DNA from: an uncultured Candidatus Saccharibacteria bacterium
Lineage (GTDB): Bacteria > Patescibacteriota > Saccharimonadia > Saccharimonadales > Saccharimonadaceae
DNA length: 46,898 nucleotides
Direction of reading: 5' to 3'
Assembly: GCA_947302125.1 (NCBI GenBank)
Contig: CAMYUL010000006.1
Location: 1 to 46,898 of the forward strand
Positions within the stretch are counted from its first letter, which is position 1, and the number at the start of each line of letters is the position of its first letter. This document shows, piece by piece, positions 7,630-39,292 of the stretch. A program made the position numbers and the translations under genes. Below the pieces are notes generated by a model. That model was not told the origin of the DNA. It ran no database searches and worked only from the letters and a program-made list of their open reading frames with translations.

Positions 7630-9756
7630 ATGAACAGTTCAAAGAAGGTCCTTGGGAGGAATTATCAGCTTTTAATGTCAACTTTCGGTGGTCTTACTGC
7701 CATCTTTGCTGCTGCCTTCATGTTCTCTAGTATTGTCCCAGCTACTACTTTTGCTGATGATCTTCCATCTGCTTCTTCTGATCTTGACGTAGCCGTATCA
7801 GTTACTCCAGTAATCTCCATTAGGACTCTAGACAGTACTGCTACTTCTCCTATCTCTTCCTTAGACTTCAACATCTTACCATCTGCCGCCGGTACCCGTA
7901 CTACTCAGACTACCGTAGTAGATGTCTCTACATCTAACGTATCAGGCTATAACCTTCTCATGCAGAGTGACTATCAGAACGGAGCAAATTATACTACAGA
8001 TCTTGTTCATGCTGATCCTACTATTGCTACTACTACTGCAGGACAGATCCCTACTGCTACTACTGCTACCGTCTCTGCTACTTCCTACTGGAACTATTCT
8101 AAGTCCTGGAATGAGACCTTAGGTCCTACTGGCAATACTTCAGACTTTTCTAGCTCTAGTATTGCTACGTCAGCTAAGGACAATCAATTAATTCCAGCTC
8201 ATGGTACTCCAGCTACCATCAGAAACGATGTAGACATTGCTACTGCTAGTAGCAAGACCAACATTGATGTTAACATCAACATCGCTACCGACAAGACTGC
8301 TGGAAGTTACAAGAACAGACTCTTGTTTACCGCCATTGCTAATCCTATTCCGGTAGACTTTACCTTAACCTTCGATAAGAATACCCAAGAAACAGTCACA
8401 AACTTACCAAATCCTATTACGGATACTAGTGTGGCTTCTAATCATACCTTTACTATTCCAAACGCCACTTCTATGAGTAGGAATGTCTATACCTTTGTTG
8501 GTTGGTCTACCTCACCAAGCGAGAGGCAGGGAAATGGTTCTGGCCCTGATGGACTCTATGTTGCTGGAGACACTATTATTGTTCCAGTTGATGGCGGCAA
8601 TGGCAACCCTGACTACAGCCAACACGGCACTGGATCTATGACACTTTATGCGGTTTGGCTGTTCCCATGCGCAGCCAATTCCATTTGCTACGCACCTAAT
8701 GGCGACGGCATTGATGGCACTATGGATAATCAGACCATTGTCTTCCATAATTCCACAGACACTGCTTATACATCAATATCAGCTGCTGACACGACAGCAT
8801 TATCCTCGTCATCTACTGAGGTTACACTTCTCGCACCTAATTTTGCCCGCCCAGGTTACGGCTTTATTGGCTGGAACACTAAAGAAGATGGCACTGGTAC
8901 GATGTATGGCCCTAATCAGACTCTAACCACTAGTGACGGTAGTTTAACCGCACAGCTGCGATCTGATCTCGGGACCAAGGGTATTGTTCTTTACTCCCAA
9001 TGGCGACCTTCTGCTGGCAATATGCAAAACTGGTCTGGCTGTAGCTCTATGAATATCGGCGACGTCACCGCCCTTACCGACAACCGTACTGATGCCGTCA
9101 ATACTAGCAAAACTTATGCCGTAGCAAAACTTCTCGACGGCAAATGCTGGATGACAGAAAACTTAAGATATACCGACAATGCAACAAATACTAGCCCTTG
9201 GCAATGGAAAGACGGAATAAAAGAATACAACTTTTCCAATATTACCGAACCAGATTCCGCTAGATCCCCAATCGATAACACCACCGCCACTGGGAGTAGG
9301 TGGCATAGCTACGGCGGATATTACACCTGGGCAGCAGCCAACGATACTACTAGCACAGATTGGGAATACGGACAAAATGCTCCAGCCCCAGGTATCTGTC
9401 CAGCTGGTTGGAGAGTACCAACGTCAGAATCAGCAGGCGGTGACCTCGCAGGACTATCAAACGCAACGACCGATGTTCCTACATTGTACCTATCTTTAAT
9501 GAACTCTGTTTCCGCGACAAGCGCGAGGACATTTGTAGTTAGTAACGCCTTTAGATCTTACCCAAATAACTTCGTACTCTCAGGAGATTGGGGTGGCGGC
9601 ACATCAGAAGTACGTGGCGGAGAAGGACGCTATTGGACATCCGCAAAGCTAAGTAGCAGTAGTTATTGTTTCTTCCTCCGAACGTCACTTGTCAATAACC
9701 CAAATTGTAGCAGTGGAAGCCACTATGGTCTAACCGTCCGCTGCGTTATCGACTAG
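7630..9756 (+). CDS. Secreted modular surface protein: InlB-type repeats plus Fib_succ_major domain
   Basis: This 708-aa protein has a signal peptide (hydrophobic stretch about 17-35, probable cleavage after TTFA near 42). A Ser/Thr-rich N-terminal region (about 45-240) resembles repetitive stalk material. Two Listeria/Bacteroides InlB-B-like repeats follow, recognised by VGWSTSP...LYAVW (about 245-345) and IGWNTKEDGTGTMY...LYSQW (about 370-460). The C-terminal domain (about 470-708) matches the Fibrobacter succinogenes paralogous domain, with LLDGKCWMTENLRY, CPAGWRVPT and a terminal LTVRCV motif. That domain has a C-type-lectin-like fold and is common in extracellular binding proteins. No membrane anchor or sortase motif is seen. 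The likely role is surface attachment or ligand binding, which is inferred. The start follows a leaderless -10. Its first 14 codons recur at the right edge of the window. Confidence 0.85.
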   Translation: MNSSKKVLGRNYQLLMSTFGGLTAIFAAAFMFSSIVPATTFADDLPSASSDLDVAVSVTPVISIRTLDSTATSPISSLDFNILPSAAGTRTTQTTVVDVSTSNVSGYNLLMQSDYQNGANYTTDLVHADPTIATTTAGQIPTATTATVSATSYWNYSKSWNETLGPTGNTSDFSSSSIATSAKDNQLIPAHGTPATIRNDVDIATASSKTNIDVNINIATDKTAGSYKNRLLFTAIANPIPVDFTLTFDKNTQETVTNLPNPITDTSVASNHTFTIPNATSMSRNVYTFVGWSTSPSERQGNGSGPDGLYVAGDTIIVPVDGGNGNPDYSQHGTGSMTLYAVWLFPCAANSICYAPNGDGIDGTMDNQTIVFHNSTDTAYTSISAADTTALSSSSTEVTLLAPNFARPGYGFIGWNTKEDGTGTMYGPNQTLTTSDGSLTAQLRSDLGTKGIVLYSQWRPSAGNMQNWSGCSSMNIGDVTALTDNRTDAVNTSKTYAVAKLLDGKCWMTENLRYTDNATNTSPWQWKDGIKEYNFSNITEPDSARSPIDNTTATGSRWHSYGGYYTWAAANDTTSTDWEYGQNAPAPGICPAGWRVPTSESAGGDLAGLSNATTDVPTLYLSLMNSVSATSARTFVVSNAFRSYPNNFVLSGDWGGGTSEVRGGEGRYWTSAKLSSSSYCFFLRTSLVNNPNCSSGSHYGLTVRCVID

Positions 9757-23679: not shown

Positions 23680-25278
23680 ATGAGCTCCGTAAAGGAGGTA
23701 GGGAAATGGTTCAAAGACCACATTACGGATGGCGACGGCAAAGTTTACTCCCTTGACAAACACCAGGCCGCCATCGTTTCTGATGCCCACAAGAATACGG
23801 AGGTTACCGCTCGTGCTGGCTCTGGCAAGACTAGAACTATTGTTGCCAAAATCGTTTATCTCTTGAAGCATGATCACCTTTCTCCGGACGAAATTATTGT
23901 CTTTGCCTTTAATAAGAAAGCCAAAACCGAGATTAACGAGCGCCTAGCTACTATCCGCTACGATCATCAGCCGCTCTTCAAGAAGCCACCATCCATTGCG
24001 ACAACTTTTCATGCCTTTGCTTACCAAGCTCTAGGTGGTAAGAAGCAGCTTAGTGGCAAGGTTATCTCAGAATGGACAGAGTATTATCTCTTAAAAGAAT
24101 CCGTCATTAAATATTGCCCAGACATAAAAGACCAAAAGCTTCTCCATAAATATATCGGCACCGCCAAACAATTTATCGTTCGCGCCGAGCAAAAATTCTT
24201 CAAGGATTACGATAAGCTACACCAAAAAATCAGTGCAATTACCGACGAAGACATCAAAACAGAGCTTCTTACTCTAGAGAAAATTCTTAACAGCTACCAC
24301 TGTGCTCTGGCCGAAAAAGAACTTATCAATTTCAATCAAATGGTCGCCACCGCCGCAAAGGAACTTACTAATCCGACTAATTATCGCTATATTTTTGTTG
24401 ACGAATATCAAGATTTCTCCCTATTATTCTTAGAACTAATCAAATCTCTCCGAAAAACCTGCAAAGACGCCAAGCTCCTAGCCGTTGGCGACGACTGGCA
24501 AGCTATCAACCGCTTCGCCGGATCAGATGTAGAATACTTTACTCACTTCGAAAGATATTTTAGAGAAGATTGCAAGAAATTATTCATCCCCACTAATTAT
24601 CGCTCCGGCAAGGCAATCGTAAGAAACGCAAACTTCTTTATGTCTAAGGCCTTAAAAGACTATAATGGCTGCAAATCTGGAAACAAATTAAAAGCCAGCA
24701 TCTATTTCAAAGATACAAAATATTGGGAAAAAGATGACGTGCAAGACAAGATCCCTTTGCTTATTAAAAATTATCTGGAAATTATCGTCAGCATCATTAA
24801 GGAAAATCCCGGAAAAACCATCAAAATTCTGCACCGCAATAATGATCTAAATTTTAACGATTGGTCGCTAGAAAAATTCATCAAGCTCTTAAAAAGCCTA
24901 ATAATAAAAGAAGCTATTTTGACCGAATCTGCTGCCGACGCCCTGATTAGTTATTCTACAATTCATCGTTCCAAGGGTCTAGAGTCCGATATCGTAGTAC
25001 TTTTAGAGGTAGATGCTGGAAAATTCCCCAGCAAAGATAAAACTGGTGGACTTTTTAAGATTTTCGGTGACGACGAAGCTGCCTTATTCCAAGACGAAAT
25101 CAGATTATTTTACGTAGCCCTCACTAGGCCAAAAGAGCAGCTCTACATTCTTTCAAAAACCACCAAAATCGCCAAAGACACCAAAAACTTCTTTAGTTAT
25201 TTAAACCAAGAATGGCTAGAAGAGTATCAAGCCACCCACTTAAGTAATCGCTCTTTCTCTGGGGTACCATCTTCATAG
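23680..25278 (+). CDS. UvrD/Rep-family helicase, helicase IV (HelD)-like
   Basis: This 532-aa superfamily 1 DNA helicase is shorter than UvrD (about 720 aa). Motifs are the Q motif SLDKHQAAIV, Walker A TARAGSGKT (about 43-51), FAFNKKA, TTFHAFAY, Walker B FVDEYQDFS, VGDDWQAINRFAGSD, PTNYRSG, TIHRSKGLESD and RLFYVALTRPKEQLYIL. The GDDWQAI...FAGSD form is typical of helicase IV relatives. No nuclease domain is seen. The start follows a -10 box by 6 nt. The last 52 nt overlap the convergent dCMP deaminase gene, so the two may interfere transcriptionally. Confidence 0.9.
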   Translation: MSSVKEVGKWFKDHITDGDGKVYSLDKHQAAIVSDAHKNTEVTARAGSGKTRTIVAKIVYLLKHDHLSPDEIIVFAFNKKAKTEINERLATIRYDHQPLFKKPPSIATTFHAFAYQALGGKKQLSGKVISEWTEYYLLKESVIKYCPDIKDQKLLHKYIGTAKQFIVRAEQKFFKDYDKLHQKISAITDEDIKTELLTLEKILNSYHCALAEKELINFNQMVATAAKELTNPTNYRYIFVDEYQDFSLLFLELIKSLRKTCKDAKLLAVGDDWQAINRFAGSDVEYFTHFERYFREDCKKLFIPTNYRSGKAIVRNANFFMSKALKDYNGCKSGNKLKASIYFKDTKYWEKDDVQDKIPLLIKNYLEIIVSIIKENPGKTIKILHRNNDLNFNDWSLEKFIKLLKSLIIKEAILTESAADALISYSTIHRSKGLESDIVVLLEVDAGKFPSKDKTGGLFKIFGDDEAALFQDEIRLFYVALTRPKEQLYILSKTTKIAKDTKNFFSYLNQEWLEEYQATHLSNRSFSGVPSS

Positions 25279-25781
25279 GAGTCTAGAATATCTTGAATAT
25301 AAGTTTTTCCATTAGAAATATTCAAAGTTTCAACCTGTGGCATCGAAGCAAGCAATCTAATAATCGCCTCGTCCGTGTCGACATTTGTCATTGATTTCTT
25401 TGCGTCATTTTTATGTGAATTCACCCGAAGTTCCTTATAGACAAAGCGCATAATTCCAGCCTGGAGGCAATATTTGAGACAGTTCTCACAGGTGGCCATC
25501 TTATTGTAAAGCGTACAGCCAGAAACGTCCCGATGCGCAAAGATCAAAGCGTTCATCTCGGAGTGAATCGCAAAATAATATTTCATTGGACGTTCAGTCA
25601 GAGTCATTTTACTCTCGTCTGCTCCCTGGATCATGCCATTATATCCAAATGACACTGGACGATGATTATTATCAACAATCACGCAACCGTTTTGAGAAGA
25701 AGGGTCCTTACTCCTCTTGGCAACTTCTTCAGAAATCCCCATAAAATATTCGTCCCACCCTAGTTGTTTACGCTCTGACAT
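25227..25781 (-). CDS. dCMP deaminase family protein (ComEB-like)
   Basis: This zinc-dependent deaminase is predicted to convert dCMP to dUMP, the precursor of dTMP. The 184-aa protein shows HSEMNAL (zinc ligand His73 and catalytic Glu75) and the second ligand pair in TCENCLKYC (Cys98 and Cys101). The GYNGM segment is typical of the substrate loop. The Pro of the common PCxxC motif is Thr here. The start has a strong GGAGGT ribosome binding site. It overlaps the helicase gene by 52 nt in a convergent arrangement. A thymidylate synthase is not in the window, so the route from dUMP must be completed elsewhere. Confidence 0.87.
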   Translation of the reverse strand: MSERKQLGWDEYFMGISEEVAKRSKDPSSQNGCVIVDNNHRPVSFGYNGMIQGADESKMTLTERPMKYYFAIHSEMNALIFAHRDVSGCTLYNKMATCENCLKYCLQAGIMRFVYKELRVNSHKNDAKKSMTNVDTDEAIIRLLASMPQVETLNISNGKTYIQDILDSYEDGTPEKERLLKWVA

Positions 25782-25872: not shown

Positions 25873-25899
25873 AAAAAGTATACTAACAGGAGGTTTTTA

Positions 25900-27677
25900 A
25901 TGAAAAAGTTGCCTTTTTCGTCGGAGCCGTCAGTGCTGTAGCCTTCACTGCCGTCTGTCTCCCCTTAGCTACATCGTCCATCGCCACATCTTGCGATGAC
26001 GTCAACTTCATCTACGCTAGGGGATCCGGCCAAGACCTCGGCGCAGGCGAATACATTGAGCTCAAATCAGCAATCGAAAATAATCTGAAGGCCACAAATT
26101 CCAAGATATCCTATAGTTTCTACGAACTAGAATATCCCGCCGTCGGGCTTGATCTATTCTCGGTGTTTGGCGCCAAAATATCTAACGGCGAGGCCTTTGC
26201 TTTTGGGAAAAGCGTCAACGCCGGCATCGCCAAATTAAAAGCCTATTTAGCCGAGCATTCTATAAAATGCCCAAACACCAAATATGTCCTTAGCGGATAT
26301 TCCCAAGGCGCCATGGTCATTACTAGCGCTATACCAGAGCTAAATCCAGCGAATATCCTCTACGCCGCAACCTTTGGCGACCCTAAGCTGTATCTTCCAG
26401 AGGGAGAGGGGATTAATCCCGACGCTTGCAAAGGCAAGAACCTTTCGCCATATCGTAGGTATGCGCCCAATTGCCGAACTTCCGCCGGCTCCCTAGGCGC
26501 CAAAATACCTTATCAGGAATTGGGCTGGGAAGGTAAAATCGGCCTCTGGTGTAGAGATAAAGATCTCATTTGTGGAGCCGGCATCGAAATCGCCTCAAGC
26601 GGCTCGGAAGAAAGCCTTATTAGTAGCGCTATTAAGTCGCATACTTCTTACGTATCTGGTGGCCAAATTGCCGATATCGCTAGAACTATCGTCAAAAAAC
26701 TCCCGGCAGCCTACCCTACCAAACTCGACGCCATTGCCATTGAGTCGAGCGCTCTCGACAGTCTCGACGTCGTCTTTTTGGTTGATCGTTCTTATCAAAT
26801 GCTTACACCCATCAGGGACCTAAAGCCAGCCATCTTAGAAGCTGCCGAAAAAGTTGTAGCTCTGCCTAATGGTCGTACTGGCCTTTATAGCTATGCCGAC
26901 TACGTCGACAAAACTCCAGTGCAAGACCTCCTATACCTTACTAGCACCTCTGGCCTACGATACGCCATGGCCACCATTCGCTACAATGGTGAAAGCACTG
27001 ACTTTGCCAAAGAAATCTCTTTGCTCCCCGCCATTAAGCGCGCACTAAGAGAGCAACCTTGGCGAGCCGGCGCCACCAAATCGATAGTCATCATCACCAA
27101 TCGTGGCTATCGCGACCCAGATATGGACGGCACCACCCTAGAAGACATCGTTAGTCTTAGTCTTTCTATTGATCCCGTCAATATTTACGTCGTTGGGCCA
27201 GAAGAAAATCGCGAAAAATTTAGCCGCTTAATTACTAGTACAAACGGCGGCTATTATAACGAAGATGAGCTAACACAATTATCCACCATCCTAAAAAATC
27301 GTCCGTCAGTTACTTTTCCGCTCGCTAAGTACACTGGTAAGCCTGGCGAAGAATTCGATTTTCTAGCAAACGTCCAAGGGGACATCATTAAATACGAATG
27401 GGACCTCGATTTCGATGGTATATTTGAAGTCACAACCAATTCTCCAAGAATCACTACAATATATCAAGATGAGACCTCAGGCTACATTCAGTTACGAGTA
27501 GCTACTAGAGATGGTAAGATTAGTACCGGCTCAGCAGAAGTAGTGATTTCAAGAAACATACCTGAGTACTATTCCTTAAGTCAGCAAGCAATCAGCAATC
27601 TCGGCGCCATTACTGACGCTGTCTCGATATCAGCGCCTAGTCAAGAGGTACTCGTTCCAAATTGCGGTAAGTATTAG
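25900..27677 (+). pseudogene. Frameshifted gene for a secreted cutinase-VWA-PKD protein
   Basis: The ATG at 25900 has a strong AGGAGG 6 nt upstream, but its frame stops after 13 codons. The +1-shifted frame, open from 25887 to 27677, encodes a signal peptide (VAFFVGAVSAVAFTAV) followed by a complete protein. One extra A in the A5 run at 25903-25907 would join start and body into a 592-aa protein. Domains in restored numbering: an alpha/beta-hydrolase of the cutinase family (about 32-250) with YARGSG, nucleophile GYSQGA (Ser135), CRDKDLIC (Asp222) and SHTSY (His248), a complete triad. A von Willebrand A-like domain (about 285-470) follows, with the degenerate MIDAS motif DRSYQ, then a PKD-like domain (about 488-568, KYEWDLDFDG). 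The indel may be a sequencing error, phase variation or real decay. The intact body suggests it is not old decay. Confidence 0.85.
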
Positions 27678-27871
27678 TTCTTGGAAGATAAGTGCCAATG
27701 ATCCCCATATTCACATTTATAGACTGAGAGCTCCGGGGCATCATGGTCATATTGCGCCACCTTAGCTGCCACCTCTGCCTCTTCACGCGTATCATAACAA
27801 ATCTTCTGGGTATCTCCAACCCAGCATTTCTTGGGCTCGTAAGCATAATTTTTATTTAATTTATTTGACAT
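27674..27871 (-). CDS. Small 65-aa protein with a Cys/His C-terminus
   Basis: I do not recognise a named family. The 65-aa product has two Cys in KKCWVGDTQKICYDTREEAE, an amphipathic helix, and the ending YKCEYGDHWHLSS, in which one Cys and two His are near each other. Together these could form a small metal site, though that is not shown. The stop overlaps the convergent cutinase gene by 4 nt. The start is supported by a -10 box 7 nt upstream and the absence of a ribosome binding site. The reading frame lies on the opposite strand to both neighbours, and it is read divergently from nrdD. Confidence 0.7.
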   Translation of the reverse strand: MSNKLNKNYAYEPKKCWVGDTQKICYDTREEAEVAAKVAQYDHDAPELSVYKCEYGDHWHLSSKN

Positions 27872-27878
27872 ACTCTAT

Positions 27879-27884
27879 ATTATA
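27879..27884 (-). promoter_or_regulatory. -10 box of the 65-aa protein gene, leaderless geometry
   Basis: Minus-strand TATAAT ends 7 nt before the ATG at 27871. Confidence 0.6.
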
Positions 27885-27949
27885 CCCTATCAAACACTAT
27901 ATGTGGAAAAACGTTGTAAATAATACAACAAAATTAACCATATTTAGTA

Positions 27950-27978
27950 TTGACACCCCACATTTAGTGTCTTACAAT
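27950..27978 (+). promoter_or_regulatory. nrdD-nrdG promoter (TTGACA - 17 - TACAAT)
   Basis: A consensus -35 TTGACA (27950-27955) and TACAAT (27973-27978) are spaced by 17 nt. The predicted start is near 27985, leaving a leader of about 78 nt with AAGGAGGT before the ATG at 28063. Confidence 0.85.
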
Positions 27979-28003
27979 GGTAACCAGACACTAGATATAG
28001 CGT
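27955..28003 (+). promoter_or_regulatory. Tandem NrdR-box-like operators over the nrdD promoter
   Basis: ACACTAGATATAGCGT (27988-28003) matches the NrdR-box consensus ACACWATATATWGTGT at 14 of 16 positions. A weaker box (27955-27970, ending TTTAGTGT) matches 12 of 16 and lies in the -35/-10 spacer. Their centres are 33 bp apart, about three helical turns, as expected for paired NrdR sites. A third partial match, ACACTATATGTGG, starts at 27894. NrdR itself is not in the window. Confidence 0.72.
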
Positions 28004-28062
28004 CTAGCCGAATAACATACAAAAACGAACAAAACGATATCATTAAGGAGGTAATAGTTTTT

Positions 28063-30453
28063 ATGTTCAAAAAAATCAAGAAACGCGATGGCAAAATCGT
28101 GAATTTCAATCCAGAAAAAATCACCGACGCAATTGCTGCTGCCGGTACCGCTACAGAAGAATTTAAATATGATCGCGCCAAGCAGCTTTCCGAAAAAGTC
28201 TTGAAGCGCGCCGAAGAAGAGATTAAGGAGCGTACTCCTTCTGTAGAACAAGTTCAAGACTTAGTAGAACAAGTCCTCATGGAATCCAGCTTCAAAAAGA
28301 CCGCTAAGGCTTATATTACTTACCGCCAAGAACGCAACCGCACTCGTGAAGCTAAATCCAACCTCATGAACATCTATAAAACTATTTCTATCGCAGACGC
28401 TTCTGAAGACTCTGATGTTAAACGCAGCAATGCTAACGTCGACGGCAACTCCGCCATGGGCAAAATGCTCCAATTTGGCGCTGAAGGTTCCAAGGTCTTC
28501 GCAAAATCCCTCCTTATGAGACCAGAATTTGGCTATGCGCACGATAACGGCGACATTCACATCCACGATCTAGATTTCTATGCCACCGGTACTCTTACTT
28601 GCTGTCAGACTGACCCACTTAAGCTCTTCGCTAATGGTGGCTTTAACACTGGCCACGGCCATCTCCGCACTCCAAATTCCATTGGTGCTTACGCTGCACT
28701 CGCCGCTATCATCTTGCAGGCTAATCAAAACGAGCAACACGGCGGCCAGTCCATTCCTAACTTCGATTACGCTATGGCCCCAGGCGTTGATAAATCTTTC
28801 AAGAAAGCCTTGAAGAGTAATCTCGAGAAATACAACAAATACTCTGGCAAGAAAGTTGAAATCAAAATTCCAGATGACATCCAGTACGGCGACGAAAAGA
28901 CCTTGAAGCGCCTCAAAGTCCCAGATGTCGTTATTGAAACTTCTAATGAAGATGTCGAAAAACAAACTTTCCAGGCTATGGAAGGTTTCATCCATAATCT
29001 CAACACCATGCATTCCCGCGCTGGTGCCCAGGTGCCATTTACCTCTATCAACTTCGGTACTGACACTACTCCGTCTGGTCGCCTCGTTTCCAAGTACTTA
29101 CTAGAAGCTACCATGAACGGCCTCGGCAAGGGTGAGACTCCAATCTTCCCAATCTCTATCTTCAAGGTCAAGGAAGGCATCAATTACAATCCAGAAGACC
29201 CTAACTATGATCTTTTCAAGCGCAGCATGGAAGTTTCCGCCAAGCGTCTCTTCCCGAACTTCTGCTTCATCGATGCACCATTCAATCTCCAGTATTACAA
29301 GCCTGGTGATTACCGCACAGAGATCGCTACTATGGGCTGCCGCACTCGCGTCTTCGGTTCCGTCTTCCCAGAATCCGACGGTATCGTTACCGGCCGCGGC
29401 AACTGTTCGTTTACCACTATCAACCTCGTTCGTCTCGGTATCAAGCACGGTATCGCCCTCAAAGAACGCAAAGAAGCTGACTGGTCCGGCTTCTACAAGA
29501 ATCTCGATGATATGATGGATCTCGTTAAGGATCAGCTCCTCGAGCGTTTTGAGTTCCAAGCTAACCAGCACGTCAGAAACTTCCCATTCTTGATGGGCCA
29601 AGGCAACTGGTTCGGCTCCGAAAAGCTCGGCTGGAACGACAAGCTCCGCGACGTCATCAAGCACGGCACTCTCTCTATCGGCTTTATTGGCCTCGCTGAA
29701 TGTCTCAAGGCTATGGTTGGCGAGCACCACGGCGAATCCGACGAAGCTCAGGAACTCGGCCTAGACATCATCTCCCATATGCGTGAAAGATGCGATGAAT
29801 ACAGCAAGAAGTATCACTTAAACTTCTCACTTCTCGCCACCCCAGCTGAAGGTCTTGCCGGTCGCTTTACCAAGATTGACCGCAAAGAATATGGCAAAAT
29901 CAAAGGTGTTACCGATAGGGACTTCTATACCAACTCCTTCCACGTACCAGTTTATTATCCAATTTCCGCCTTCGACAAGATCGAGAAAGAAGCTCCATAC
30001 CACGCCCTCTGTAACGCTGGCCACATTAGCTACATCGAGCTCGATGGTGACCCATCCGACAATATCGAAGCTTTCGAAGCCGTCATCCGCAAGATGCACG
30101 ACTGCGGCATCGGCTACGGCTCCGTCAACCACCCAGTTGATCGCGATCCAGTCTGTGGCTTCGCCGGCATCATCAAGGGCAACCGCTGTCCATCCTGTGG
30201 CCGTATCGAAGACGACGTACTCTTTGAGCGCCTCCGCCGCATCACCGGCTATCTCGTAGGTTCCCTCGAGCGCTGGAACGATGGCAAGAAGGCTGAGGAA
30301 GCCGCTCGCGTCAAACATAATGTCAGCTGCGAAGATATCGAAGCTGAGAAAAAGCTTGCCGAGAAGCACAAGAACGGTGTATACTCTAAGGAAGAAAAAG
30401 CCGAGCGCGAAGCTAAGAAAGCTTCCGCCAAAAAAGCATTGGGAAAGGATTAA
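28063..30453 (+). CDS. nrdD: Anaerobic ribonucleoside-triphosphate reductase (class III)
   Basis: NrdD reduces ribonucleoside triphosphates to dNTPs with a glycyl radical, only without oxygen. The 796-aa protein has an N-terminal ATP-cone (about 1-92, KIKKRDGKIVNFNPEKI), the catalytic ten-stranded barrel with HIHDLDFY and conserved Cys in LTCCQTDP, MGCRTRV and GNCSFTTINL, a zinc-type Cys cluster near the end (DPVCGF...CPSCGR) and the glycyl radical motif RITGYLVGS (Gly729). A charged, Lys/Glu/Ala-rich tail of about 40 residues extends beyond the usual C-terminus. The ATG at 28063 was chosen for AAGGAGGT 10 nt upstream. An in-frame start at 27865 would lie before the promoter. nrdG follows after 3 nt. 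Confidence 0.97.
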   Translation: MFKKIKKRDGKIVNFNPEKITDAIAAAGTATEEFKYDRAKQLSEKVLKRAEEEIKERTPSVEQVQDLVEQVLMESSFKKTAKAYITYRQERNRTREAKSNLMNIYKTISIADASEDSDVKRSNANVDGNSAMGKMLQFGAEGSKVFAKSLLMRPEFGYAHDNGDIHIHDLDFYATGTLTCCQTDPLKLFANGGFNTGHGHLRTPNSIGAYAALAAIILQANQNEQHGGQSIPNFDYAMAPGVDKSFKKALKSNLEKYNKYSGKKVEIKIPDDIQYGDEKTLKRLKVPDVVIETSNEDVEKQTFQAMEGFIHNLNTMHSRAGAQVPFTSINFGTDTTPSGRLVSKYLLEATMNGLGKGETPIFPISIFKVKEGINYNPEDPNYDLFKRSMEVSAKRLFPNFCFIDAPFNLQYYKPGDYRTEIATMGCRTRVFGSVFPESDGIVTGRGNCSFTTINLVRLGIKHGIALKERKEADWSGFYKNLDDMMDLVKDQLLERFEFQANQHVRNFPFLMGQGNWFGSEKLGWNDKLRDVIKHGTLSIGFIGLAECLKAMVGEHHGESDEAQELGLDIISHMRERCDEYSKKYHLNFSLLATPAEGLAGRFTKIDRKEYGKIKGVTDRDFYTNSFHVPVYYPISAFDKIEKEAPYHALCNAGHISYIELDGDPSDNIEAFEAVIRKMHDCGIGYGSVNHPVDRDPVCGFAGIIKGNRCPSCGRIEDDVLFERLRRITGYLVGSLERWNDGKKAEEAARVKHNVSCEDIEAEKKLAEKHKNGVYSKEEKAEREAKKASAKKALGKD

Positions 30454-30456
30454 TTA

Positions 30457-30942
30457 ATGAAAATTCGCCTCTCGGGTCCAATTGAGCACGATTCTATCGT
30501 CAATGGCTATGGCCTTCGCGCCGTAGTCTGGACCCAGGGGTGTCCTATCCATTGCAAAGGCTGCCAAAACCCAGAAACCTGGGCTTTTGACGGCGGCCTA
30601 GAAGTAGATATTGAAGAAGTTAAGGATGAACTCCGCGGATTAAAGGGCCAAAGTGGCCTCACCTTCTGCGGTGGCGAACCAAGTTTCCAGGCCAAAGCCT
30701 GCACCGAAATTGCCAAGTGGGCCAAGGAAGAACTTGGCTGGAACATCTGGAGCTTCTCTGGTTACACTTATGAAGATTTAAAAGCCCAGGGCGGTGACGC
30801 CTGGGAATTCGTAAAGACATTAGATGCGCTCATCGACGGACCGTTTATTCTTGCCGAGCGCGACCTCACCCTCAAATTCCGTGGATCTAGGAATCAACGC
30901 CTGTTACATCTTAAGAACGGTGAAATTACCGATATCGAATAA
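30457..30942 (+). CDS. nrdG: Anaerobic ribonucleotide reductase-activating protein
   Basis: NrdG is the radical-SAM activase that makes the glycyl radical on NrdD using a 4Fe-4S cluster and SAM. The 161-aa protein has the cluster motif C-x3-C-x2-C (CPIHCKGC, Cys29, Cys33, Cys36) in WTQGCPIHCKGCQNPETW, and TFCGGEPSFQA, the SAM-contact GGE motif. The length is normal. It lies 3 nt after nrdD and must be co-transcribed with it under the same NrdR-type promoter. The Fe-S genes iscS-iscU follow directly on the same strand. Confidence 0.97.
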   Translation: MKIRLSGPIEHDSIVNGYGLRAVVWTQGCPIHCKGCQNPETWAFDGGLEVDIEEVKDELRGLKGQSGLTFCGGEPSFQAKACTEIAKWAKEELGWNIWSFSGYTYEDLKAQGGDAWEFVKTLDALIDGPFILAERDLTLKFRGSRNQRLLHLKNGEITDIE

Positions 30943-39217: not shown

Positions 39218-39292
39218 TGGGTCGTCGCCAAGTGGTAAGGCAACGGGTTTTGGTCCCGTCATTCGCAGGTTCGATCCCTGCCGACCCAGCCA
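39218..39292 (+). tRNA. tRNA-Gln (UUG), complete
   Basis: This 75-nt cloverleaf has acceptor stem TGGGTCG/CGACCCA, a short D arm, anticodon stem ACGGG/CCCGT around TTTTGGT (anticodon TTG), T arm GCAGG-TTCGATC-CCTGC, discriminator G and an encoded CCA. The ABC exporter follows 50 nt downstream with no terminator between them. The left edge of the window repeats all but its first 10 nt. Confidence 0.97.

Follow-up and report, generated by a model that had tools for sequence, protein, structure and literature searches.

A predicted exported cutinase-family esterase with a VWA-PKD arm in Saccharibacteria

Introduction

How Saccharibacteria, which are deficient in lipid synthesis, get membrane lipids from their host bacteria is an open question. 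Membrane-lipid synthesis is absent from these organisms, and TM7x raises the lipid droplets of its host (PMC10939385). In a 46,898-nucleotide stretch of DNA from an uncultured Candidatus Saccharibacteria bacterium (contig CAMYUL010000006.1), here called the window, the initial annotation described positions 25900-27677 as a single reading frame for a secreted protein with cutinase, VWA and PKD domains, and suggested a lipase directed at the host envelope. Here we ask whether the locus encodes such an enzyme, what it would act on, and whether this copy of the gene is intact.

The start of the gene

The length of 25900-27677 is 1778 nt, which is not a multiple of three, so the coordinates span more than one open frame and the single reading frame first described does not exist. 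Downstream of a perfect Shine-Dalgarno sequence, AGGAGG (25888..25893, plus strand), an ATG with five A residues directly behind it (25900..25907, plus strand) lies one base off the protein frame; this ATG at 25900 reads MKKLPFSSEPSVL and then a stop (13 codons to the stop). The frame that carries all of the domains, 25902-27677, is stop-free for 591 residues, and a check for alternative starts in it found no ATG, GTG or TTG 5' of the signal peptide. Its earliest start in the list of open reading frames is a GTG at 26163, inside the cutinase domain. The protein described below was read from the frame 3' of the break, with no base altered.

This frame opens with the signal peptide that had been proposed (residues 1-27 of protein P0001; 25902..25982, plus strand). 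It holds a hydrophobic helix at residues 2-22 and is conserved with L057, L058 and L070, and relatives carry surface and export signals as well. The signal-peptide sequence of the nearest relatives matches that of the window (VSAVAFTAVCxPLATSS or AVSAVAFTAVC) behind a normal, in-frame ATG, which means that the break in the window is recent or a sequence error.

The break at the start may be an error in the sequence, a frameshift of recent date or a site of slippage. The start reads ATG AAA AAG, a -1 frame would continue as MKKVAFF..., and a G AAA AAG slip site sits right after the start codon; a -1 slip after AAG could join both frames and would amount to recoding. A one-base sequence error is nevertheless a simpler account than -1 slippage at the five-A run. 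With 124 matching open reading frames of relatives as queries we found no further frameshift in the window, in a survey that breaks at gene starts escape, and on these grounds assembly indels in general were rejected. An alternative genetic code for the window is unneeded, as the open frame is open under table 11.

Separately, the contig ends (1-7671 and 39228-46898) form an exact 7,671-bp direct repeat at an offset of 39,227 with no mismatch, which is probably an assembly overlap, or else a true duplication. The start falls within a tRNA-Gln gene (39218-39292).

The cutinase domain and its likely chemistry

Profile, alignment and fold prediction agree on a cutinase domain at residues 28-275 (25983..26726, plus strand), which matches Cutinase PF01083 in Pfam with an E-value of 3.2e-19 and 70 bits against a curated cut-off of 25.9. 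In a profile alignment S134 (26301-26303), D221 (26562-26564) and H247 (26640-26642, all plus strand) and the GYSQG nucleophile elbow occur in order and match solved cutinases residue by residue. The full Ser-Asp-His triad claimed at the outset is therefore borne out, and it is unchanged across 31 aligned sequences. Equally invariant in these 31 are Cys31/123, 176/191 and 217/224, which probably pair as disulfides.

Folded alone, the domain gave a model with a pTM of 0.89, whose top match is Mycobacterium tuberculosis Rv3802c (Z 20.8, rmsd 3.4 over 211 residues, 18% identity), with a yeast cutinase-like enzyme at Z 20.6, acetylxylan esterases at Z 20 and Fusarium cutinase at Z 18. The structure prediction that had been proposed as a check thus returned the cutinase-type alpha/beta hydrolase fold (Z 17-21 to cutinases). 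The domain shares with cutinases of PF01083/CE5 (1cex, 7cc4, 4psc) the fold, the elbow, the triad and two conserved Cys pairs, but has some 50 residues more, most of them in a conserved loop that lies ahead of the catalytic Asp and holds a Cys pair of its own, and the family is joined to VWA, PKD and FN3 domains. In the alignment this insertion (26379..26549, plus strand; LYLPEGEG..PDAC..YRRYAPNC..GSLG..PY..GK.GLWC) spans about 57 residues 5' of the catalytic Asp, and its mean column identity of 0.68 exceeds the 0.52 of the core. Taken together, sequence and model are best read as an exported serine esterase of the cutinase family, for which ester hydrolysis is predicted.

Which ester would be cleaved is a further matter. 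The initial annotation argued from cutinase relatives in mycolate-bearing Actinobacteria, an argument that finds no support here, since the window protein scores 19.1 bits on the NCBI equivalog model for mycobacterial Culp6, NF050160, against a cut-off of 570 and its fold is no nearer to Rv3802c than to acetylxylan esterases and yeast cutinase-like enzymes. The hosts of oral Saccharibacteria, for instance Schaalia and Actinomyces for Nanosynbacter, are without mycolates. Culp6/Rv3802c, a phospholipase/thioesterase (5w95), is the best structural match to the catalytic domain of the window protein, and it is not known to have a VWA/PKD arm. Mycobacteriophage lysin B, a mycolylarabinogalactan esterase (D29 gene 12, 3hc7), shares the hydrolase fold (Z 17.8; 34% identity over 112 residues for phage LysB), but it targets mycolates at lysis, has neither adhesion arm nor surface anchor, and is less similar than true cutinases.

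The main rival to a lipid substrate is a glycan. A CE5 O-deacetylase would strip acetyl groups from host wall or capsule polysaccharide and open the surface for attachment. Such a role is possible because CE5 includes acetylxylan esterases, which have the same fold and to which the model is equally close (Z 19.8-20.2, 23-24% identity), an acetylxylan esterase being the first of the cutinase-like Foldseek matches; the conserved insertion could serve as a rim that binds glycans. However, cutinases and a CE5 enzyme outrank acetylxylan esterases in sequence search, and the mycobacterial relatives are lipolytic, so we regard deacetylation as rather unlikely. We favor lipid hydrolysis, to which the strong conservation of the active-site insertion also lends support.

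The VWA-PKD arm and the state of this copy

Behind the cutinase domain, profile and fold prediction place a VWA domain with an integrin-beta-like fold (about residues 286-468; 26757..27305, plus strand) and a PKD-like beta domain (about residues 469-552; 27306..27557, plus strand). The VWA domain of the initial annotation stands as a domain, with 27.5 bits (4.2e-6) on PF00092 against a cut-off of 23.8 and a predicted fold close to integrin-beta I-like domains (Z 21, rmsd 2.3 over 185 residues, 11-17% identity), but its metal site is lost in the window copy. DRSYQM (26784-26801) and ITNR, the latter instead of LTDA, depart from the DxSxS...T...D pattern, whereas nearly all aligned relatives keep DxTGSM and LTDA. 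Binding through this metal site holds for the family, but not clearly for the window copy. For the PKD-like domain the window protein itself reaches 19.3 bits (0.0012), under the cut-off of 23.5; a beta-sandwich is predicted, and relatives L121, L127 and L128 exceed the cut-off.

Some structural matches to integrin beta run on into the PKD part. The integrin beta chain profile PF00362 has no match in the window and gives 16.8-17.9 bits in two relatives against a cut-off of 24.8, and in the models the resemblance of the arm to the integrin beta headpiece (I-like/VWA plus hybrid) is one of fold only, with the metal site lost in the window copy. Bacterial VWA adhesins, for example PilB of Streptococcus sanguinis (PMC8179133), share the VWA fold as well. 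The whole-protein model has a pTM of 0.50, at which the placement of the domains relative to one another is uncertain.

The one-base break at the start and the degraded VWA metal site bring the functionality of this particular copy into question. It could be a recent pseudogene in which the frameshift at the start codon stops synthesis and the VWA site has already degenerated, a reading that concerns the window copy only and is compatible with the function of the family. The start break without an alternative start codon, the degenerate site and the long branch of the window copy in the gene tree are all compatible with decay, and the lack of a second frameshift in the window indicates that the assembly is not generally indel-prone. 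Against decay stand a stop-free stretch of 591 codons, the invariance of the catalytic residues, a signal peptide conserved in the shifted frame, the five-A run as a usual place of sequence error or slippage, and the exact 7.67-kb terminal repeat, which is at least one assembly oddity. On balance we consider a pseudogene doubtful, although this particular copy may be damaged.

Distribution of the family and a homologue on an Arthrobacter plasmid

PF01083 is found in 98 of the 103 genomes of the window's genus, in many genomes of genus g11 and here and there among the families of the order, and homologues occur in 130 of 295 genomes of the family. Five near-complete genomes of the genus have no match, which implies that the gene is not essential everywhere. 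Outside the class no match exceeded the cut-off in the phylum sample, and two weak cutinase matches there proved on inspection to be unrelated proteins. A search for the architecture in other Patescibacteria, as had been suggested, found it across the order Saccharimonadales, many of whose members carry cutinase-VWA-PKD(-FN3). In several of these the cutinase, VWA-like, PKD and FN3-like regions (some VWA and FN3 assigned by eye) lead into a linker and then a membrane helix at the C-terminus. The VWA domain has disappeared from much of g11, which retains cutinase-PKD-PxTG-helix-KK, while class members of family f35 have another architecture, with the cutinase C-terminal behind a different domain. 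A scan of genome contigs gave PKD-level matches only. The family is thus widespread, and it is usually single-copy and typical of this Saccharibacteria genus. The domain order had been called undescribed; we found no paper on a Saccharibacteria cutinase or on this architecture in the open-access literature, but the order itself recurs in many Saccharimonadales and on a plasmid of Arthrobacter.

In the g11 homologues (L037-L054) in-frame TGA codons fall mostly where relatives have Trp, which suggests that some members of that genus use TGA as a Trp codon.

Over residues 31-554 the window protein is 31% identical to a full-length homologue on the plasmid of Arthrobacter sp. zg-Y1110, read from a frame that holds WP_231711996.1, annotated as 'PKD domain-containing protein'. 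This homologue shares with the window protein the cutinase-VWA-PKD order and the inserted loop, but unlike it has an intact DSTGSM, an FN3-like and Pro-rich region and an LASTG sortase anchor with a membrane helix. Its GC content of 61% is near that of its plasmid. In the tree it joins the Saccharibacteria genera g58 and g31 at 100/100, and this position, nested within Saccharibacteria, implies transfer between phyla. Judging by this one actinobacterial sequence, the protein has passed between the phylum of the parasite and that of the host, in one direction or the other.

The C-terminal tail and surface anchoring

The window protein ends in VPNCGKY and a stop with no transmembrane helix (27654..27677, plus strand), the counterpart of the P-x-(T/S/A/C)-G tail of its relatives. 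Copies in the window's genus end in a conserved PNTGKR-stop, also without a membrane helix, and in 24 of 29 sampled proteins, mostly from this genus, a P-x-(T/S/A/C)-G lies no more than 20 residues from the C-terminus and is followed by no helix. The window protein does not have the combination expected of a sortase substrate (LPxTG, membrane helix and basic tail), all three elements of which are present in L060 and the Arthrobacter protein. Genus g11 likewise has an LPxTG-like signal with membrane helix and basic tail, and other families have a C-terminal helix; sortases are present. No other protein with such a helix-less tail occurs in 320 kb of genome G163, where the cutinase alone carries it, and a genome-wide sorting tag was rejected, as the PNxG(K/R) pattern matched the present gene in three genomes and, besides it, a single site in G222. 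The helix-less PxTG tail may mean an unrecognised way to hold proteins at the surface.

A second protein of G163 (L096-L111, contig C4; 124112-124735 of the joined stretch) ends in TPDTG, a membrane helix and a basic tail, a regular anchor of the sortase-like kind within this genus.

Locus and inheritance

The conserved neighbours are a gene for a dCMP-deaminase/ComEB-like protein (25227..25781, minus strand; named from sequence motifs) and, on the 3' side, nrdD and nrdG (27865..30942, plus strand; named from sequence, nrdG matching Fer4_12/Radical SAM). Many members of the genus have the gene between a dCMP-deaminase/ung/tdk/tmk cluster and nrdD-nrdG-iscS, and in g11 ung is near the cutinase gene. 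The gene tree groups the sample of genus g1 (95/95) and that of g11 (97/98), so that synteny and tree agree, consistent with an old gene inherited mostly vertically. A mobile or phage origin was rejected, as the neighbours are housekeeping genes with conserved synteny; the only phage matches are to mycobacteriophage LysB, at 19% coverage.

This setting bears on whether the enzyme is directed at the host at all. It might instead remodel lipids or glycolipids in the envelope of the parasite itself, a role like that of Culp6/Rv3802c in mycolate metabolism. Rv3802c gives the highest structural match, and the conserved gene sits on the chromosome among housekeeping genes. The long VWA-PKD-FN3 arms and the sortase-like anchors point outward, however, and we judge this role improbable.

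Elsewhere in the window, what may be a small ORF (about 63 residues; 27680-27871, minus strand), seen by eye, faces the end of the cutinase gene. Positions 7630-9756 encode a 708-aa protein with Listeria-Bacteroides repeat and Fib_succ_major domains, likely a further surface protein judging by these domains, and a relative of it lies near the cutinase gene in L070.

Proposed function and implications

From the computed domains, triad, fold, export signal, anchors in relatives, conservation and distribution we infer an activity, a substrate, a host target and a binding role for the arm. The signal peptide would export the protein, which in many relatives would be retained at the surface by an LPxTG-like signal and helix or by a C-terminal helix, and in the window's genus would end in the short PxTG tail. 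The VWA-PKD(-FN3) arm, resembling integrin beta I-like and hybrid domains, would most likely bind a surface ligand and place the hydrolase at the actinobacterial host's envelope. There the cutinase would cleave acyl esters, most likely of phospholipids or glycolipids, which might release fatty acids or lysolipids for a parasite unable to make them, or loosen the envelope at the site of contact. Action on host acyl lipids is suggested by the lipase and phospholipase activities of the cutinase family, the missing lipid synthesis of Saccharibacteria and the way in which host lipids respond. The cutinases of mycobacteria act as lipases or phospholipases and are no true cutinases (PMC3699616), and a further report likewise describes lipase and phospholipase activities in the family (PMC2625445). 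We give an even chance to the proposal as a whole, an exported cutinase-family serine esterase that is held by its arm to the host surface and hydrolyses acyl esters of the host envelope.

Tentatively, the protein could be a dedicated lipid-harvesting machine at the cell surface. In this view an integrin-headpiece-like arm would hold on to the host envelope and bring into position a cutinase that has its own lid-like insertion; the machine, encoded by one chromosomal copy in nearly every sampled species of the genus, would have been shared horizontally with the phylum of the host and in that genus would carry a new helix-less PxTG tag. Genetic tools exist for cultured Saccharibacteria (PMC10633639, PMC12206443). 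An esterase that is conserved, exported and usually single-copy, and that has an adhesion arm, offers a concrete and testable candidate for how these bacteria acquire lipids.
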